NCBI GenBank assembly: GCA_012517255.1
Contig: JAAYVH010000188.1
Span: forward strand, 1 to 44,181
DNA length: 44,181 nt
Direction of reading: 5' to 3'
Source: Chthonomonadales bacterium
GTDB lineage: Bacteria > Armatimonadota > Chthonomonadetes > Chthonomonadales > CAJBBX01
Shown here: in pieces, positions 26,614-34,824 of the stretch
Layout of the letters: each line of letters opens with the position of its first letter
Numbering within the stretch: position 1 is the stretch's first letter
Notes under the pieces: model-generated
Databases searched by the model: none
Seen by the model: the letters and a program-made list of their open reading frames with translations, nothing else
Told to the model about the DNA's origin: nothing
Made by a program: the position numbers and the translations under genes

Positions 26614-26963
26614 CGTGATCCTCCTTGTCCGCTCTGCACCTCAGTGGTCAGATGCTTCACCTGCTCCTCGAGCCACCGAAGCGTCGGTCGAGCCTTCTCC
26701 GAAGCCGCCCTGGCGGCATCGCTCAGCTTCTGTCGCGCCGTTTCCAGCGAACTGCGAGCTGCCGCCGTGTCCACTGATCGCACAGCCTCGCCAGCCCGCC
26801 TGACCGCCTCGACCGCTTGAGCCAGTGCGTCGGCTGAGTGCCGCTGCTCATCAAGCTGTCGGCGAAGTGTCTGCACCTCAGCCTGGAGCTGCTGAACCTG
26901 CCAGGCGTTGTAGCCGGTCAGCGCAATGAAGACCAGTATGAGAAGCGCAAGGAAGCCTTTCAT
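26610..26963 (-). CDS. single-pass membrane coiled-coil protein
   Basis: One N-terminal membrane helix (residues 4-20, FLALLILVFIALTGYNAW) is followed by nearly 95 residues of heptad-like sequence rich in Ala, Glu, Gln and Arg. This indicates a long coiled coil facing the periplasm. There is no catalytic motif. Both ends are coupled by ATGA overlaps, to the acyltransferase gene before it and the M48 gene after it. It may tether or regulate one of these products at the membrane. This is inference; the family is not recognised and such sequences are hard to classify because of low complexity. Confidence 0.8.
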   Translation of the reverse strand: MKGFLALLILVFIALTGYNAWQVQQLQAEVQTLRRQLDEQRHSADALAQAVEAVRRAGEAVRSVDTAAARSSLETARQKLSDAARAASEKARPTLRWLEEQVKHLTTEVQSGQGGSR

Positions 26964-28114
26964 GTGATCTGCACTCCTTCGGACGGCGTCGCTTGCGAGG
27001 TTTCCCTCTGCCGTTCCGAGCCCTTGCCCCGATCGGACCAGGCCTTGGCCAGAGACTCAATGCGCCGCTCGAGACGGTTGAGCCTCAGCATGGCCGATGA
27101 CCGCCACCTTCTCGTGCTGGGCACGAGGAGCTGGGCATTGGTGCGCTCCTCCGGAGCCCAGCGGTATTTGTACGCCTCATGACCACGGAGGAAGTCGAAC
27201 TCCGAGCACCCCTCGGCAATGGCCTGACGGATCGCCGACGCGGTTAGCGTGGTCCCGATGCTGTAGCGTCCCAGTGCAGGCTCGAATCCGCCGAGGTAAT
27301 AGTAATAGCGCCGACGATAGGAGAAGCAGTAGAGTCCCGCCACGATCTTGCCATCCACGCGCGTCGCGTGCAACCGCAGCCATCCGCGGTCACTGAAACG
27401 CGCGGCGACGTCGCGATGGAATCGTCTCGTTGCCGATCCGGAGAGCACTCCCGGCATCATGCGCGAGCGCCACCTGCGCCCATGCAGATCGAAGAGCGCC
27501 GTCATGCCGGCGTCCAGCCCGTCTTTGTCGACCAGCACGGTCTCGACCTGCTCGAACGAGCGCTGCAGGAGCCGCTCGTAATAGGCGATGTTGCTGCGCA
27601 GCCGTTTGCCGCGTCCACGAATGAAGACGTCCCAGGTCTCCGGCAGCGCGACATACGGGCATATCTCCAGCGGCCTGGCGACGCATGAAGAGGCCCGAAG
27701 ATGCTTCACGGCGTGAGCGAGCGGCGACCATTCCGGTATCTGCTGAAGATCGGCGAGGTCATGGCTTCGGGCCGATTCCAGAAAGGACAGCAGAGCGCGG
27801 CACGCATGCGGCGCGCGCTGTTCGTCGGCGATCACGTCGAGATAGTCGGAAGCGCCCGTGCCGATGTAGGCAAGGCGCCGGAGCGGCGTGCCGAGATGAC
27901 GGCTCAGGTACAGCGGCGCGATAGCAACCAGCTCGTCGCCGTCATGGACAAGCAGAAGCCGGAGCGATTTGCGCCTACCATACGCCGACCACCATGCGTG
28001 GTTCCATTCCCACGTCTGGTATACGGTCGCCGCAGGCATCCGCTGGAGCAGGTCGGTCCACTGCTCCTGGAGCTCTGCCAGGGCGCTGCCCTCGCGTATC
28101 TCGATGACCTTCAT
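26960..28114 (-). CDS. FemAB/CelD-like GNAT acyltransferase
   Basis: The protein has the duplicated GNAT layout of the FemAB/CelD (BcsL-type) family. An N-terminal half contains YQTWEWNHAWW. A middle contains GKRLRSNIAYYERLL, the Arg-rich segment of the family. A C-terminal half contains IVAGLYCFSYRRRYYYYLGGF and ends after FDFLRGHEAYKYRWAP. Members transfer amino-acid or acyl groups to peptidoglycan precursors or exopolysaccharide. ATG 28114 is chosen because the upstream in-frame stretch is antisense to nothing conserved and lies within the preceding gene. The ribosome binding site is weak. The Arg-rich C-terminal tail is likely disordered. Context favours exopolysaccharide or glycan modification; the acyl donor is unknown. 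Confidence 0.88.
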   Translation of the reverse strand: MKVIEIREGSALAELQEQWTDLLQRMPAATVYQTWEWNHAWWSAYGRRKSLRLLLVHDGDELVAIAPLYLSRHLGTPLRRLAYIGTGASDYLDVIADEQRAPHACRALLSFLESARSHDLADLQQIPEWSPLAHAVKHLRASSCVARPLEICPYVALPETWDVFIRGRGKRLRSNIAYYERLLQRSFEQVETVLVDKDGLDAGMTALFDLHGRRWRSRMMPGVLSGSATRRFHRDVAARFSDRGWLRLHATRVDGKIVAGLYCFSYRRRYYYYLGGFEPALGRYSIGTTLTASAIRQAIAEGCSEFDFLRGHEAYKYRWAPEERTNAQLLVPSTRRWRSSAMLRLNRLERRIESLAKAWSDRGKGSERQRETSQATPSEGVQIT

Positions 28115-28127
28115 GGCTGCCGCACGC

Positions 28128-29186
28128 TCAGCCGATGAGCTCCAACGCCCCGTGGCCCTCGACGACCCCAAGCTCCAACCGATACTGTCGCGTCTCGCCC
28201 GGCTCAATCATCTGCAGTCGGCCTGCAGCACGTTCCACCGACCTGCCCATGACGCGCGCATTGGCCGGCTCCAACCCGACCACATACGTCCCCGCCCCCA
28301 TCATCTTCCATTGCACAAGCTGCGGCAACTGGTCGGGGCGGTACCGAACATAGACCCCGAGGCCGCCGTCGAGCGTCGGATTGACCACCGCAACGGTTGC
28401 CGAACCATCAGGGTCAGGCGCGACGCGGTGAAAGTAGACCTTCTCCCGATATCCGACTACCGGCTCCTCGACGCACATCCACCGATCTCCCCCGCGGGCC
28501 GACTCGTCGTCACGCGGCTCGGTAAGCTCGGCTGGAACCACTACCCGCGAGCCCGCATCCACGATGGGAAAGCCCAGGTTCACATGGTACAGCACCATAT
28601 GGGGCGACGATGAAAAGCCCTCATTCGTGATGGCATCCTCCACAATCAGGCGGTTCTCTCCGAGGACTGCGCTGATCTTGCGACGGCACACGACGTTCTC
28701 GCCGAACACCACAGTCTCGCGCACCTCACCCTGAACCGAGAGAACATAGGCATCCCCATCCCACTCGGCCCAGCCGCGGACCGCGGCCGCCGGAGTGTTG
28801 CTGTAGCGCCCATGAAGCCCCAGTTCGACCCCGTCGTCTGTATCGGGCGCGCCCATCCACGTGAGACCGCAGGTAGTGAGCAGTCCCCCCGGAAAGCCCC
28901 GCAGCCACCCCAGTCCCTGGGGCTCGTAATACGCCGGATGCCGATCGCCCTGCGCCGATCGCCATGCCAGCGAGCGCCCCCGATAGGATGCCGACGAGAT
29001 GTCAAGGCCGCGAGAGGGCACCACGGTGAACTGAAAACCGGTGCCCGTGGTCACATCGGCCGCATGGACGCCTTCGTCGCTTCCGTCGCTCAGCGTGTGC
29101 ATCTTGACGCGGGCGATCTGCGACATGTCACCCACGCGCGCGACAAGCTCTTGCCGTGTCCACTGCTTACCATACAGATTGACCAT
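28128..29186 (-). CDS. DUF4432-type, aldose 1-epimerase-like protein
   Basis: The sequence has the galactose-mutarotase-like beta-sandwich pattern, with VPSRGLDISSASYRGRSLAW near residue 60 and GLHGRYSNTPA near 130. Later come LYHVNLGFPIVDAGS (about 210) and WKMMGAGTYVVGLEPAN (about 302), which are features of the DUF4432 family. Such proteins are thought to bind sugars and may interconvert anomers; no biochemical function can be claimed here. ATG 29186 has GGGAGAG shortly upstream, so the longer upstream frame is not used. It is cytoplasmic (no signal peptide). It lies between a nucleotidyltransferase gene and a FemAB-like gene, which suggests a role in supplying or recycling sugars for the local glycan pathway. 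Confidence 0.85.
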   Translation of the reverse strand: MVNLYGKQWTRQELVARVGDMSQIARVKMHTLSDGSDEGVHAADVTTGTGFQFTVVPSRGLDISSASYRGRSLAWRSAQGDRHPAYYEPQGLGWLRGFPGGLLTTCGLTWMGAPDTDDGVELGLHGRYSNTPAAAVRGWAEWDGDAYVLSVQGEVRETVVFGENVVCRRKISAVLGENRLIVEDAITNEGFSSSPHMVLYHVNLGFPIVDAGSRVVVPAELTEPRDDESARGGDRWMCVEEPVVGYREKVYFHRVAPDPDGSATVAVVNPTLDGGLGVYVRYRPDQLPQLVQWKMMGAGTYVVGLEPANARVMGRSVERAAGRLQMIEPGETRQYRLELGVVEGHGALELIG

Positions 29187-29236
29187 TGGTTCTCTCCCAG
29201 AAGCGCCTGACCGGGCGTTGCCGAGCGGCAGCGCCT

Positions 29237-30283
29237 CTAGATGCCGTTGGCGTTGGACAGGTCCACAATAACCCCGTCGAAGATCGCAGCATTCGACTGA
29301 ACGCGGCATCCTTTGCCCACCACGCAATGTTCCAGCCGGGTCCCTGCCATGATCTGCGCGCCTTCCCAGACGATGGATTCGCGGATAACCGCTCCAGAGG
29401 CCACCGAGCAGTTGGGACCGATGACCGTGTTCTCCAGGACCTCGGCGCCCGATTCGATCTTCACGTTGTCGCCTATCACCACGGGGTAACCGATCTTCGC
29501 AGATGGCTCGATCTCGACGTTGTCGCCAATCCACACGTACTTGCGCACTTCAGGAACGGGAAACTCGATCTGTGCTCTTCCGGCCAGTGCGTCAATGTGC
29601 GCCTGCTGATACATGGCGAGATTGCCGACGTCCATCCAATAGCTCGCCGTGAGGTACCCATAGATGGGCCTGCTCTGGGCGAGCATCTGAGGGAAGAAGT
29701 TCTTGCCCAGCTGGTAGAAGACATTCCGCGGGATTAGTTCGAGAGCCTCGGGCTCAAACACGTATACGCCGGTATTGGCGGTGTTGGAGAAGATCACCTC
29801 GCCCTTTGGCTTCTCGAGGAACTTGGTTATGCGACCCTCCTCGTTGATCAGCACGATGCCGTATTCCGACGGATCGTCCACGAGCGAGAGCGCGATGCTC
29901 GCGAGGGCTTTCTTCTGCCGATGGTTCTCGACCAATCGAGTCAGGTCAATGTCCGCGAGGTCATCGCCTCCTATGACAAGAAACGTCTCGTCGCCGAAGA
30001 AGTCCTCGCACCGCTTCACGCTGCCGGCATCACCCCAGAGCTGGTCCTCGACGGAGTAGCTGATATTCACGCCCAGGCGCCTGCCGTCGCCGAAGTACGA
30101 CATGATCTGGTCGCCGAGATAGTGCACGTTGACGATGATATCGGTGAAGCCGTGTTTGCGGAGCAGCCGAACAATGTGCTCCATAACCGGTCGGTTGACG
30201 ATGGGCACCAACGGCTTGGGAAGGGTGCGCGTCAGCGGATGCATGCGCGACCCCACGCCGGCGGCAAGGATCATTGCTTTCAT
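29237..30283 (-). CDS. NDP-sugar pyrophosphorylase with hexapeptide-repeat C-terminus
   Basis: The N-terminus reads MILAAGVGSRMHPLTRTLPKPL, the nucleotide-binding signature of sugar-1-phosphate nucleotidyltransferases. GGDDLADI (about 103) and FLEKPKGE (about 155) follow. From about residue 250 short [IV]G-type hexapeptides (WIGDNVEIEPSAKIG, VIGDNVKIESGAEV) form a left-handed beta-helix, as in GDP-mannose and glucose-1-phosphate enzymes of the ManC/RmlA-like group. It charges a hexose-1-phosphate with an NTP. ATG 30283 follows a GAAGGGAGT site. Partners are the phosphomutases at 34992-37710, which could supply hexose-1-phosphate. Substrate sugar and nucleotide are not determined. Confidence 0.93.
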   Translation of the reverse strand: MKAMILAAGVGSRMHPLTRTLPKPLVPIVNRPVMEHIVRLLRKHGFTDIIVNVHYLGDQIMSYFGDGRRLGVNISYSVEDQLWGDAGSVKRCEDFFGDETFLVIGGDDLADIDLTRLVENHRQKKALASIALSLVDDPSEYGIVLINEEGRITKFLEKPKGEVIFSNTANTGVYVFEPEALELIPRNVFYQLGKNFFPQMLAQSRPIYGYLTASYWMDVGNLAMYQQAHIDALAGRAQIEFPVPEVRKYVWIGDNVEIEPSAKIGYPVVIGDNVKIESGAEVLENTVIGPNCSVASGAVIRESIVWEGAQIMAGTRLEHCVVGKGCRVQSNAAIFDGVIVDLSNANGI

Positions 30284-30367
30284 CGAGTACTCCCTTCCCT
30301 GCTATGGTTACGGTCCGGGGGCGCTGATCGCTTCACCATCTGCTGCCCGGAATGCGGACGGAGCGCG

Positions 30368-31465
30368 CTAGCGAAAACGCCGAACCGTAGCGCACACATG
30401 CTCCAGCTGCGCTTCCGTCAGATCGGGATGCACAGGCAGCGAGAGAACTTCGCGGCAGGCCCGCTCGGCCTCCGGGAAATCGCCCTCGGCGTATCCGAGG
30501 TCCTTGTAGGCAGGCTGCACATGGAGCGGGGACGGATAGTAGATGCCGCTCTGTATGCCGGCATCTGCGAGGAACGCGCGCAACCGGTCCCGTTCCGGAG
30601 ATCTGACGGTGAACTGATGATAGGTATGAAAGACGCCCGGAGCCTCAACCGGCAGCGTGAGACCCGTCTCCGCCAGGCATTGCCGGTACCGCTCGGCATG
30701 CCGTCGCCGCGCCGATGTCCATTCGCTAAGATGACGGAGCTTCACGCTCAGGATCGCGGCCTGCAGGGCGTCCAGCCTACTGCAGTATCCGACGGCATCA
30801 TAGGCATAGTCACCGCCGCTCCCATGGAAACGCAGTCGCCGAACCCGTTCGGCACAGGCCGCGTCGTTGGTCAACACCATGCCGCCGTCGCCGTATGCGC
30901 CGAGATTCTTTGTCGGGAAGAAGGAGAGCGTAGCGGCATCGCCAAAGGCGCCGATGGGCTTGTTGTTGAAGGCGCTTCCGATGGCCTGGGCGGAGTCGTA
31001 GATCAGGATCAGGTCATGCTCCGCTGCGAGGTCGGCAAACGCCTCCCGATCGGCCATCTGACCGAACAGATCCACGGGCATAATCGCCCTTGTGCGTGGG
31101 CCGATCTTCCCGGCCGCCGCTTCGGGATCAAGGTTGAACGTGGCTGGATCTATATCGGCAAACACCGGGGTTGCGCCAACGTGGCTTATGGCCTCGATCG
31201 TGGCCACGAAGGTGAAAGGCGTTGTGATCACCTCATCACCCGGTCCAATGCCGCATCCCGCCAGCGCGAGCAAGAGCGCATCGGTGCCCGAGTTCACCCC
31301 GACCGCATACTGCGAACCGCAGTAGTCCGAAAGGGATTGCTCGAGGTCTGCAACGGCTGGTCCCAGAATGAACCTGCCGCTCTCCAGCGCGGCCCTGATG
31401 GAGGTGTCTATCTCATCTTTGATGGATACGTACTGTGCGACAAGATCGGCAAGCGCGACAGTCAA
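30368..31465 (-). CDS. DegT/DnrJ/EryC1/StrS aminotransferase
   Basis: This is a PLP enzyme that aminates keto-sugar nucleotides. VNSGTDALLLAL (about 58-69), YDSAQAIGS and FFPTKNLGAYGDGG with the PLP lysine Lys 186 are the family hallmarks. The length of 365 is typical. The start is TTG 31465: LTVALADLVAQYVSIKDEI matches the normal beginning of the family, and GGAG lies seven bases upstream. Promoter-like TATAAT lies about 30 bases before it. Paired with the 4,6-dehydratase of this window it could make an amino-dideoxy sugar, as WbpE or PglE do. The dehydratase lies about 10 kb away on the other strand, so the pairing is inference. Confidence 0.95.
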   Translation of the reverse strand: MTVALADLVAQYVSIKDEIDTSIRAALESGRFILGPAVADLEQSLSDYCGSQYAVGVNSGTDALLLALAGCGIGPGDEVITTPFTFVATIEAISHVGATPVFADIDPATFNLDPEAAAGKIGPRTRAIMPVDLFGQMADREAFADLAAEHDLILIYDSAQAIGSAFNNKPIGAFGDAATLSFFPTKNLGAYGDGGMVLTNDAACAERVRRLRFHGSGGDYAYDAVGYCSRLDALQAAILSVKLRHLSEWTSARRRHAERYRQCLAETGLTLPVEAPGVFHTYHQFTVRSPERDRLRAFLADAGIQSGIYYPSPLHVQPAYKDLGYAEGDFPEAERACREVLSLPVHPDLTEAQLEHVCATVRRFR

Positions 31466-31494
31466 TGATTGGCTCCGGACGTGTTCGTGGCAAC

Positions 31495-31500
31495 ATTATA
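31495..31500 (-). promoter_or_regulatory. -10 box for the DegT transcription unit
   Basis: Perfect TATAAT on the minus strand in the 64-base gap between the GalU-like and DegT genes. The expected transcript start is near 31488, giving a leader of about 23 bases that just contains the GGAG site. The -35 region is poor (TTTGGT with a 14-base spacer). Confidence 0.45.
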
Positions 31501-31529
31501 CATCCCGCGCGGCCACCAAACGGCGCGGC

Positions 31530-32381
31530 TCAGTCTCCTTCGCTGGCGGCCACCTGTCGGCGCACATCTTCCCCGTACTCCGGATCCCACACCGATGCGA
31601 GGGCCTGGGCCGCTAACAGCGACTTCCAGTTACCGACGTCGCACCTGCGCTCCGACGCCGCCATCGGTACGGCAACCACGCGCCCGCCGTCTGCCAGCAG
31701 CCTCGCGATAGCCTCTGTCACCCCCACTTCACCGTTGGGGCCAGGCGTCTGGCGCTCGATGTATGCCAGCGCTTCGCTCCTAAGGATCCAGCGCGCCGCC
31801 ACGACCCACTCGCTCGGAGCCTCCGCGGGATCCGGCTTCTCGACGATTCCTGCCACGGCGAACGGCTCACCGTCGTTCGGATCGCTTGCGTCGAAGGGAG
31901 CCAGAACCCCGTAGAACCGCGTGCGTTCCCTCGGCACGCGTTCGCAGAGCACCGAGGCATGGGCTGAGCATGCGTCGTGAGCCCGAATCAATCGCAGCAA
32001 GGCAGGCAGCCTGTCGGCCGACGGCCTCCGGAACAGCGCACAATCCCCGAACGCTGCCACGACCGATCCCTCGAATGCTTGTCCCGTGGCCCGCAGAATG
32101 GCATCCCCGACGCCCCGCATCTCGGGCTGGAGCGTGTAGGCAACCTCGATACCCCAACGACCGCCGTCGCCGACATACAAGCGGATCAGGTCCTTGGACG
32201 GGGACAGCACCACCACTGCCCGTCGTATTCCTGCCTCCCGAAGCTCATCCATCACATGACCGATGACCGGCATCCGCCCAATCGTCAGCATCTCTTTCGG
32301 GATGGTGTCCGTGAGCGGCCTGAGCCGCGTGCCGTAGCCGGCCGCCGGTATGACGGCGAGATCTGGTCGTCCGCCAGCCAT
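31530..32381 (-). CDS. GalU-like UTP-glucose-1-phosphate uridylyltransferase homologue
   Basis: The signature PAAGYGTRLRPLTDTIPKEML is the GalU form of the nucleotidyltransferase motif (PKEML rather than PKPL). Later come the acidic element FGDCALF (about 110) and GIVEKPDPAEAPS (about 180). At 283 residues it is a single-domain protein, in line with GalU (about 300). It would make UDP-glucose or a related NDP-sugar in the cytoplasm. It is 35 bases downstream of the oxidase subunit gene, so the respiratory and glycan genes may share a transcript. The residue FGDCAL is a variant of the common FGDDxx motif, so specificity is uncertain. Confidence 0.87.
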   Translation of the reverse strand: MAGGRPDLAVIPAAGYGTRLRPLTDTIPKEMLTIGRMPVIGHVMDELREAGIRRAVVVLSPSKDLIRLYVGDGGRWGIEVAYTLQPEMRGVGDAILRATGQAFEGSVVAAFGDCALFRRPSADRLPALLRLIRAHDACSAHASVLCERVPRERTRFYGVLAPFDASDPNDGEPFAVAGIVEKPDPAEAPSEWVVAARWILRSEALAYIERQTPGPNGEVGVTEAIARLLADGGRVVAVPMAASERRCDVGNWKSLLAAQALASVWDPEYGEDVRRQVAASEGD

Positions 32382-32416: not shown

Positions 32417-33493
32417 CTATCCTGCCATCTTCGGCTTGGCCCGAACGAAGGCAGCCACCATCCATGCCACGGTAGCGAGACCGACGAGCAAGACGGCAAC
32501 AAACACCACGAGCAGCGCCCATTGCGGATTCACCTGCAGGTTGTTCACCTGCAAATCGGGAAACAGCGAGATCTGGCGAACACGATGCCGCGTTCCGACC
32601 ATGAGGAACACCGAGATCCCCGTCAGGAGCGCTGCCAGACCAGGCATGCGTCGGACCACCGCCATGGCGACGATGGCGAGCACAATGCCTGCCGCCAACA
32701 CACCGCTGTCCAGCATGTTCCCGCCGATGAAGGCGTTACGCACGCGGTCGGGAAGCGCGAAGAGAAACCAGAACCCGATGATCAACTGCACGCCGCCCGC
32801 AGCCAGAAACCATCGTCGGCCGGCCGTCTGCAGCGCGTCGGAGACCTGCTCGTCGGCGGACTTGAGCGTGCGTCCAAGCAACATGACCGCGAGCCCACCT
32901 ACCGAGAAGGCGCCGACGATGAAGTGAAGATATCGGGGCAAGAGCGTTCCGTCAGCCATGTTGAGCTTCAGGCCGCTGATACCCGCGTCGTACAGGTACT
33001 TCCATATCGAAGGCGCCAGCATCAGGGTCCAGGTGTTGGTAAACACGAAGCCCACCGCCAGGATGGCAAGCATGCTCAACCATGCGACGATGGTCTCGCG
33101 GTTGCCCAACCATGAGGGCCGGAACTGGCAGATATACAGCCCGTAGTAACCGAGCATCACCAGCGGCACGATGGCAAGCCACGGCCAGGCTATGAGCACC
33201 GAAGCAGTGTAGAACGCCTGACCGTAGATCACCTGAACGAACAACAGCGGCGCCACGCCGAGGGTGATGGTCATGGACATGGTGACGGGCAGAGCTCGGG
33301 CAAGCCGCCGGAACACCCGATCGGCAAGAGGGTCGGTCTGCCGCTTTCGGCCCGCGAGCGCCATCATCGTCACGCCGCCCACGAGCAGGTTCATCGCTAG
33401 CAGGTGCAAGGTGAGCGTGAAGACGGAGAGAAACTTCAAAATCACAACCGGCGCCGGCAAGCCGGTGGGATCGGGAGCGGGCATTACCGGCAT
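32417..33493 (-). CDS. CydA'-like membrane subunit paired with a cytochrome c-fused CydA-like protein
   Basis: The protein has about eight to nine membrane helices. I see repeated resemblance to the first subunit upstream: a first helix with a His (TLTLHLLAMNLLVGGV), a pair of helices with YGQAFYTASVLIAWPWL, and WLSMLAILAVGFVFTNTWTLMLAPSIW. The last parallels WLSLFMINGILTFMLTPGRW of the CydA-like subunit. The two Glu residues typical of CydA are missing here. This fits a degenerate CydA paralogue (CydA'-like second subunit) rather than CydB. ATG 33493 forms a TGATG junction with the upstream stop; GTG 33496 is the alternative. It is expected to form the oxidase with that subunit. The assignment rests on visual comparison only. 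Confidence 0.65.
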   Translation of the reverse strand: MPVMPAPDPTGLPAPVVILKFLSVFTLTLHLLAMNLLVGGVTMMALAGRKRQTDPLADRVFRRLARALPVTMSMTITLGVAPLLFVQVIYGQAFYTASVLIAWPWLAIVPLVMLGYYGLYICQFRPSWLGNRETIVAWLSMLAILAVGFVFTNTWTLMLAPSIWKYLYDAGISGLKLNMADGTLLPRYLHFIVGAFSVGGLAVMLLGRTLKSADEQVSDALQTAGRRWFLAAGGVQLIIGFWFLFALPDRVRNAFIGGNMLDSGVLAAGIVLAIVAMAVVRRMPGLAALLTGISVFLMVGTRHRVRQISLFPDLQVNNLQVNPQWALLVVFVAVLLVGLATVAWMVAAFVRAKPKMAG

Positions 33494-34824
33494 CACAGCC
33501 CCCCTTTCTGCTCGGCGGGCGCAGCCGCCACGTCCGATTCCTGCTCCGTATCATTGAGCGTCAAAAGGTACTCGACCAGAGCGGCGCGCTCCTCATCCGT
33601 TCCGATGAACGGCGGCATGAACCCCTTCAGCTCGTTTAAGTACAGGATCTGATGGTCGAGGAACTCTCGGCCCCACCCCTTGACGGCGAAACGCATGCCG
33701 TTGAAGCCGTTGACTGTGTGGCATGCCATGCACTGGGCTCGGAACACCCGTCTGCCGACGCGTACCTGCGACTTCGTGTCCGCTTCCGTGGGGCGCTCCC
33801 ATTTGGCATTCGTGAGCAGGCCGCTCATGGAGTACTCGCCAAGGTCCTTTACGCGCAGAGTGTTCGAGTACATGTAATCGTAGATGATGTAGGGTTTCCG
33901 CACGGCTTCGCGAACCCATTCGGTCACCCCCGTGGCCATGAGGCCCATGATCGCCAGTCCGAACGCGTAGGTGACATGAACGTGCTTGGGAAAGAGATAC
34001 GGGCCGATGAACGCGCCGCCTACGACCAGAGCTGAGAAGAGGATGCTGCCCGCGGCGAACAACGTCACCACGGGGGCGCCTCCCATGGATATCTCGCGGG
34101 CCATCGGCGGCAGTTGCGCGACGTACCAGAAGCCCGCGAGGGGCAGTACGGCGATCCCGCCCATCACCCACTTGGCCGACCAGCGCACGATCCGCGCCCG
34201 GGCTTCATCATTGCGTATGAGCGTGCCTGTGATGAGCGCATAGAGTCCGGCGAGCGCCACGCAGACAGCCGTTCGGAGGATCGCTGACGGAATCATCGTG
34301 GGATTGAAGAATCCATCCGCCACCGACTGCGTTTCGATCCAGCGACCCGGCGTAAGCATGAACGTGAGAATGCCGTTGATCATGAACAGCGAGAGCCAGG
34401 CGGAGACCACGTAGATCCATCCGACCTTGATGTGCGTCGCGGGATCCATGCGCTCCCAGCCGTAGTAGTAGATGATCGCGGCGATCAGCTCGACGAGGAA
34501 GAAAACCCACTCGATGGCCCAGACCCAGACAAAGACATGGATGAGCGTCGAGACCGCTGTAGGATTGACGAGGGCGATGGTCCACCATATGCCCACCCCG
34601 CTGACCGCGCCGAACACCAGCACCACCAGGATGAAAAACGTGCTGTGCTTCCTGGCGAAGTCGAGCATGTCCGGATCGTTGGTCTTGCGGGCCTGTATCT
34701 CCGTCAGGACCAGATACAGCCCGCCGCCGATCGCGAAGTGAGACACGAACACGTGCAGGATCGCGATGATGCCGATGAGCATCCCGCCTCCTAGCATCGG
34801 TACTTCCCAGATCGGGTAGTTCAT
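33493..34824 (-). CDS. cytochrome bd-type (CydA-like) oxidase subunit fused to cytochrome c
   Basis: ATG 34824 follows GGGAGG by six bases. About nine membrane helices are followed by a periplasmic cytochrome c domain with heme-binding CMACH (residues 365-369) and a likely axial Met 403 in GFMPPF. CydA features: helix 1 with His 24 and His 29, two membrane glutamates (Glu 105 and 112) followed by YYYGWERM, and a helix ending MLTPGRW. In CydA a similar Glu pair precedes GWDRL and forms part of a proton path. The fused heme suggests electron delivery from a c-type carrier rather than quinol only. The family is known to have subgroups lacking the quinol loop. No CydB gene is present. Function as an oxygen reductase is inference from family. 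Confidence 0.8.
   Translation of the reverse strand: MNYPIWEVPMLGGGMLIGIIAILHVFVSHFAIGGGLYLVLTEIQARKTNDPDMLDFARKHSTFFILVVLVFGAVSGVGIWWTIALVNPTAVSTLIHVFVWVWAIEWVFFLVELIAAIIYYYGWERMDPATHIKVGWIYVVSAWLSLFMINGILTFMLTPGRWIETQSVADGFFNPTMIPSAILRTAVCVALAGLYALITGTLIRNDEARARIVRWSAKWVMGGIAVLPLAGFWYVAQLPPMAREISMGGAPVVTLFAAGSILFSALVVGGAFIGPYLFPKHVHVTYAFGLAIMGLMATGVTEWVREAVRKPYIIYDYMYSNTLRVKDLGEYSMSGLLTNAKWERPTEADTKSQVRVGRRVFRAQCMACHTVNGFNGMRFAVKGWGREFLDHQILYLNELKGFMPPFIGTDEERAALVEYLLTLNDTEQESDVAAAPAEQKGGL

Follow-up and report, generated by a model that had tools for sequence, protein, structure and literature searches.

We assign a pair of adjoining genes from an Armatimonadota genome to what is probably a two-subunit, cytochrome c-dependent O2 reductase. 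Within the cytochrome bd superfamily, OR-C is the family that suits it best. The window, the 44,181-nucleotide stretch of Chthonomonadales DNA analyzed here (contig JAAYVH010000188.1 of assembly GCA_012517255.1), carries both genes on the minus strand. Subunit I (33493–34824, 443 aa) has a CydA-like membrane domain with a C-terminal cytochrome c, and subunit II (32417–33493, 358 aa) is a CydA paralogue that has neither the Glu pair nor the cytochrome c; its ATG overlaps the stop codon of subunit I in the sequence TGATG. The host lies near Chthonomonas, its 4.77-Mb genome is rated 100% complete and its subunit I is 80% identical to that of the closest named relative, from an assembly labelled Chthonomonas calidirosea. 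A genome of the same genus (L017) has both subunit genes and the same five downstream genes in unchanged order; the window locus is therefore genuine, and contamination of the assembly was ruled out. The oxidase genes precede sugar-nucleotide genes, with no donor complex adjoining. The latter genes, of the sugar-nucleotide or surface-polysaccharide type (26960–32381, minus strand), begin 35 bases downstream and encode a nucleotidyltransferase, a DegT aminotransferase, a second nucleotidyltransferase, a DUF4432 protein and a GNAT protein, an order kept in L017.

The domain content of subunit I was established by profile searches. Residues 17–204 matched the Pfam family Cyt_bd_oxida_I (PF01654) with an E value of 4.3e-12 and a score of 45.8 bits (cut-off, 26.2 bits), and residues 353–420 (33565–33768, minus strand) matched cytochrome c families (PF13442, E 2.2e-9, and PF00034). 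The CMACH motif of this cytochrome c lies at 33718–33732 (minus strand), with Met403 as the distal ligand. The preliminary description had called subunit I CydA-like on the basis of a Glu pair, GWERM, PGRW and a C-terminal CMACH, and this was borne out by the two Pfam matches and by conservation: the Glu pair, GWERM, TPGRW and CMACH were all found, and E105, E112, M156, G160, W162, C365, C368, H369 and M403 are 95–100% conserved among 95 relatives, so the motifs are not chance occurrences. Alignment of the subunit I profile to CydA with hhalign gave an E value of 1.5e-11.

The residues that build the O2 site of cytochrome bd could be mapped onto subunit I one by one. By profile alignment, His24 (34753–34755, minus strand) corresponds to the active-site heme ligand His19 of Escherichia coli CydA and is present in 94/94 relatives, while Glu105 and Glu112 (34489–34512, minus strand) correspond to Glu99 and Glu107 of the proton path (94/95 and 95/95, respectively). 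Glu306, within REAVRKP (33907–33909, minus strand), aligns in the multiple alignment with Glu445, the heme b595 ligand (95/95). H24, E105, E112 and E306 are each conserved in at least 98% of the 95 relatives, and the residues that bind heme c (C365, C368, H369 and M403) reach the same level.

An AlphaFold2 model of subunit I, built on an alignment of 83 relatives (pLDDT 91.1, pTM 0.88), shows eight membrane helices followed by a C-terminal cytochrome c fold. All significant matches of the model in a PDB fold search were bd oxidases, with CydA chains ahead of CydB chains. The eight predicted helices place the N and C termini on one side in the model; the heme of the cytochrome c must be periplasmic, and so the C terminus should be periplasmic. 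PuuD shares this layout: its eight helices leave both termini outside, and its C-terminal part is a cytochrome c (PMC4562309). Subunit I could on this ground be read as a PuuD-type membrane cytochrome c dehydrogenase that oxidizes urate and feeds electrons into the chain. We regard this as scarcely credible, because subunit I keeps the active-site residues of CydA and is paired with a CydA paralogue. The PuuD family PF06181 (Urate_ox_N) had no match in the window genome, in 60 relatives or in a Pfam scan of the subunits, and a PuuD-type urate enzyme was rejected on that result.

Canonical features for quinol oxidation are missing from subunit I. The heme b558 ligands are replaced, with L183 in the column of H186 and Ala in that of M393. 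Across 33 sampled subunits I, the H186 column holds Leu, Phe, Val or Ile, the M393 column is variable and the quinol-site region of K252 and E257 is absent in all 33. The cytochrome c, on the other hand, is universal: at least one CxxCH follows the membrane core of subunit I in 92/92 distinct loci, with one such motif in 55 loci, two in 14, three in six and eight in 17. A quinol oxidase of the ordinary bd type, with the cytochrome c merely accessory, would account for O2-site residues that are the same as in CydA and for a fold that matches quinol-oxidizing bd enzymes. It would leave unexplained the loss of b558 ligands and of K252/E257 in every sampled subunit I and the presence of a cytochrome c at every locus, and in relatives a Rieske/cytochrome b unit would oxidize quinol in its place; we therefore consider it very unlikely.

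The subunits I with eight CxxCH motifs, mostly about 880 aa long, occur at L092 (6001–8616) and 16 other loci (for example, L095, L096, L104 and L108). The additional segment in L092 gave a match to an outer-membrane MtrC/MtrF-type domain, and the protein there is a fusion of bd-like oxidase and multiheme cytochrome. Three consecutive CxxCH motifs follow the membrane core in L105, L106, L110, L112, L116 and L099, mostly of the Geobacteraceae/Desulfuromonadaceae type.

Gene neighborhoods of the relatives were then compared. Wherever a locus holds both subunit genes (85/85), they are neighbors in the same orientation, and the other seven of the 92 loci are all cut by, or near, a contig end. In six Armatimonadota relatives (L026, L027, L028, L030, L031 and L032), subunit II is followed by a Rieske protein, cytochrome b and then subunit I, and in a seventh (L029), whose contig is cut upstream, the order is Rieske protein, cytochrome b and subunit I. 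These loci resemble operons that would encode a supercomplex running from quinol to oxygen around a bd-like oxidase. A cytochrome c donor is indicated by three independent facts: subunit I lacks the b558 ligands and the quinol site, its fused cytochrome c domain is universal, and related genomes have Rieske and cytochrome b genes within the operon. The interpretation in the preliminary description, a bd-superfamily enzyme that takes electrons from a c-type cytochrome, is supported by the same three lines. Two consecutive copies of subunit I stand ahead of subunit II in L055, L057 and L060, and L057 also has a cluster for a cbb3-type oxidase just upstream.

CydB, whose absence had been noted beforehand, was found neither beside subunit I nor, as PF02322, anywhere in the 100%-complete window genome. 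Among the sampled loci, it occurs only beside a separate canonical CydA (L035, L108 and L113), with a short CydB-like fragment in L115. In the operon, the position of CydB is taken by subunit II, which gave no match in single-sequence searches of Pfam, NCBIfam and PDB sequences or in a profile search of PDB sequences. With iterated profiles, either subunit recovers the other. Alignment with hhalign related the profile of subunit II to that of subunit I with an E value of 7e-16, to the OR-N-like group with 1e-7 and to canonical CydA with 6e-7, compared to 0.02 and a probability of about 2% for CydB. The model of subunit II (pLDDT 95.4, pTM 0.92) has nine predicted helices, and its fold matches were CydA chains first, CydB next and then ActC of alternative complex III. 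Structure prediction thus gave bd-like models for both subunits, and the mapping of His and Glu residues that had been proposed along with it located H24, E105, E112 and E306 in subunit I and H30 and H190 in subunit II. His30 (33404–33406, minus strand) occupies the His19 position in 86/86 relatives, and His190 (32924–32926, minus strand) aligns with the heme b558 ligand His186 in 75/85 (88%).

On these grounds, we consider it extremely improbable that subunit II is a diverged CydB and the complex a CydAB enzyme to which a cytochrome c has been joined. CydA and CydB do have a common fold, CydB chains are among the structural matches of subunit II and the operon position is the expected one, but the profile comparison separates the two, the best structural matches are CydA chains and the H19 position is conserved throughout; CydB identity was rejected by the profile comparison. 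As judged by profiles and models, subunit II is a paralogue of subunit I and a relative of CydA, and assignment to CydB is unsupported. It had been described as a degraded copy of the same fold. The shared fold and paralogy stand (E 7e-16) and the Glu pair is indeed lost, but subunit II has invariant positions of its own (H30, Y116, Y120, R187 and R302). Because H30 and H190 are kept and R187 and R302 are invariant, its conservation pattern is that of a specialized paralogue and not of a decaying copy. Subunit II itself may bind a heme, with H30 and/or H190 as ligands. In a tree with both subunits, long branches meet where an origin of subunit II from subunit I would be told from an earlier one. 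Subunit II may fairly be called 'CydA prime', with no kinship to archaeal CydA' or to the Nitrospira OR-N partner implied.

We take a C-terminal cytochrome c on CydA to be the defining trait of OR-C. Subunit I has this trait together with a CydA-like core without the quinol site and a clade apart from qOR, and the enzyme fits the OR-C family as a new member of a described kind; at this family level, no feature is known that would set it apart from OR-C. In trees of the shared core, with Methylomirabilota proxies for OR-N in place of the published reference sequences, subunit I was separated from qOR and from the OR-N-like group as one clade with a bootstrap of 100. Phylogeny within the bd superfamily had been suggested as a check, and Pfam, profile, fold and tree all place subunit I inside the superfamily and outside the quinol-oxidizing clade. 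With canonical CydAB (qOR), window subunit I has in common His19, Glu99, Glu107, Glu445 and the four-helix core. It differs in the added cytochrome c, and the qOR traits that were sought in the window pair, namely the H186/M393 heme b558 ligands, the K252/E257 quinol site and a CydB partner, were all absent.

The bd superfamily has been split into qOR, OR-C and OR-N (PMC13189123, PMC11707229 and PMC10839748). OR-N (CydAA') of Nitrospira and Nitrospinota is putatively cytochrome c-oxidizing and thought to consist of two CydA-like proteins, and in Nitrospira moscoviensis it clusters with Rieske/cytochrome b genes (PMC6606698, PMC10839748 and PMC12342949); both its use of cytochrome c and the CydAA' complexes are ideas without experimental confirmation (PMC10839748 and PMC12342949). 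The window pair resembles OR-N as a putative cytochrome c-fed bd relative with two CydA-like proteins. The OR-N-like proteins of Methylomirabilota (L192–L209), however, are about 600 aa long, have no CxxCH and keep H186, all unlike subunit I. In these proteins, Tyr replaces E99 and Ser replaces E445, which removes the usual b595 ligand. Membership in OR-N was rejected, as the pattern of subunit I is unlike that of the Methylomirabilota OR-N-like sequences and its clade is separate.

OR-C was reportedly described in sequence space by Murali, Gennis and Hemp in 2021 (ISME J 15:3534), a study whose abstract is also said to have archaeal CydAA' oxidizing quinol. The literature searched yielded no biochemical data on an OR-C-type enzyme, the classification having been made from sequence; the suggestion of a poorly studied class held in this respect, but the class itself was already described as OR-C. 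Compared by description only, archaeal CydAA' resembles the window pair in that two CydA-type subunits replace CydA and CydB. It is set apart, likewise by description, by its reported quinol oxidation and by the fused cytochrome c, which to our knowledge is not found on archaeal CydAA'.

In the mechanism that we propose for the OR-C-like enzyme, electrons from a periplasmic donor would enter at the covalently bound heme of the fused domain and pass from there directly to the active-site hemes and on to O2, which would be reduced to water. Ordinary cytochrome bd has a low-spin heme b558 and a quinol site; here, both would be absent and bypassed. This path is proposed because the quinol site is missing, the cytochrome c is universal and the operon partners are of the Rieske/cytochrome b type. 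The O2-reducing heme pair would sit in the four-helix core of subunit I, ligated via H24 and E306, and protons would move from the cytoplasm through E112 and E105 to the active site. As electrons would arrive from the periplasmic side and protons from the cytoplasmic side, the reaction would be electrogenic without pumping. Subunit II would be a structural stand-in for CydB, forming the pseudo-symmetric partner of subunit I.

The putative donor would differ between genomes, with quinol as the electron source in each case. In the Armatimonadota relatives, it would be the Rieske/cytochrome b pair. The window genome has no bc1-type cytochrome b and carries an ACIII-caa3 operon, in which alternative complex III lies beside a caa3 oxidase; this complex could be the source of reduced cytochrome c and is the most likely donor there, acting via cytochrome c. 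Since a caa3 oxidase is present, respiration would not depend on the bd-like enzyme, whose role may be to detoxify or to scavenge O2. A cytochrome c-fed reductase of another small molecule, such as NO or peroxide, or a detoxifier for which O2 reduction is secondary, would suit this coexistence and the many anaerobe-rich lineages among the carriers, such as Desulfobulbaceae and Geobacteraceae; detoxifying roles are also known for canonical bd oxidases (PMC10839748). Conservation of the full set of O2-site residues and of the proton-path Glu pair speaks against it, and we judge it unlikely compared to O2 reduction by the proposed OR-C-like enzyme. A bolder extension of the OR-C-like reading, which we offer tentatively as possible though doubtful, is that subunit II is a heme protein (H30 and H190) with an extra redox center, that the family forms obligate supercomplexes and that the four-gene operon in part of the Armatimonadota encodes a complete unit from quinol through cytochrome c to a bd-type oxidase. 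If so, the Armatimonadota operon would be the counterpart of a bc1-aa3 supercomplex without a heme-copper oxidase.

The solved structures matched in our PDB searches were only those of quinol-oxidizing cytochrome bd enzymes. Were the enzyme cytochrome c-fed, the third great class of O2 reductases would also work downstream of complex III. The question of the donor is directly testable thanks to the constant partnership with a CydA paralogue and to the Rieske/cytochrome b operons. Further work would be best spent on these operons and on the histidines that subunit II conserves. The arrangement is widespread, with relatives of subunit I in Armatimonadota, Acidobacteria, Geobacteraceae and Desulfobulbaceae, among others, and a cytochrome c-fed enzyme would mean that energy yield and oxygen use are to be read differently from the genomes of all these carriers.
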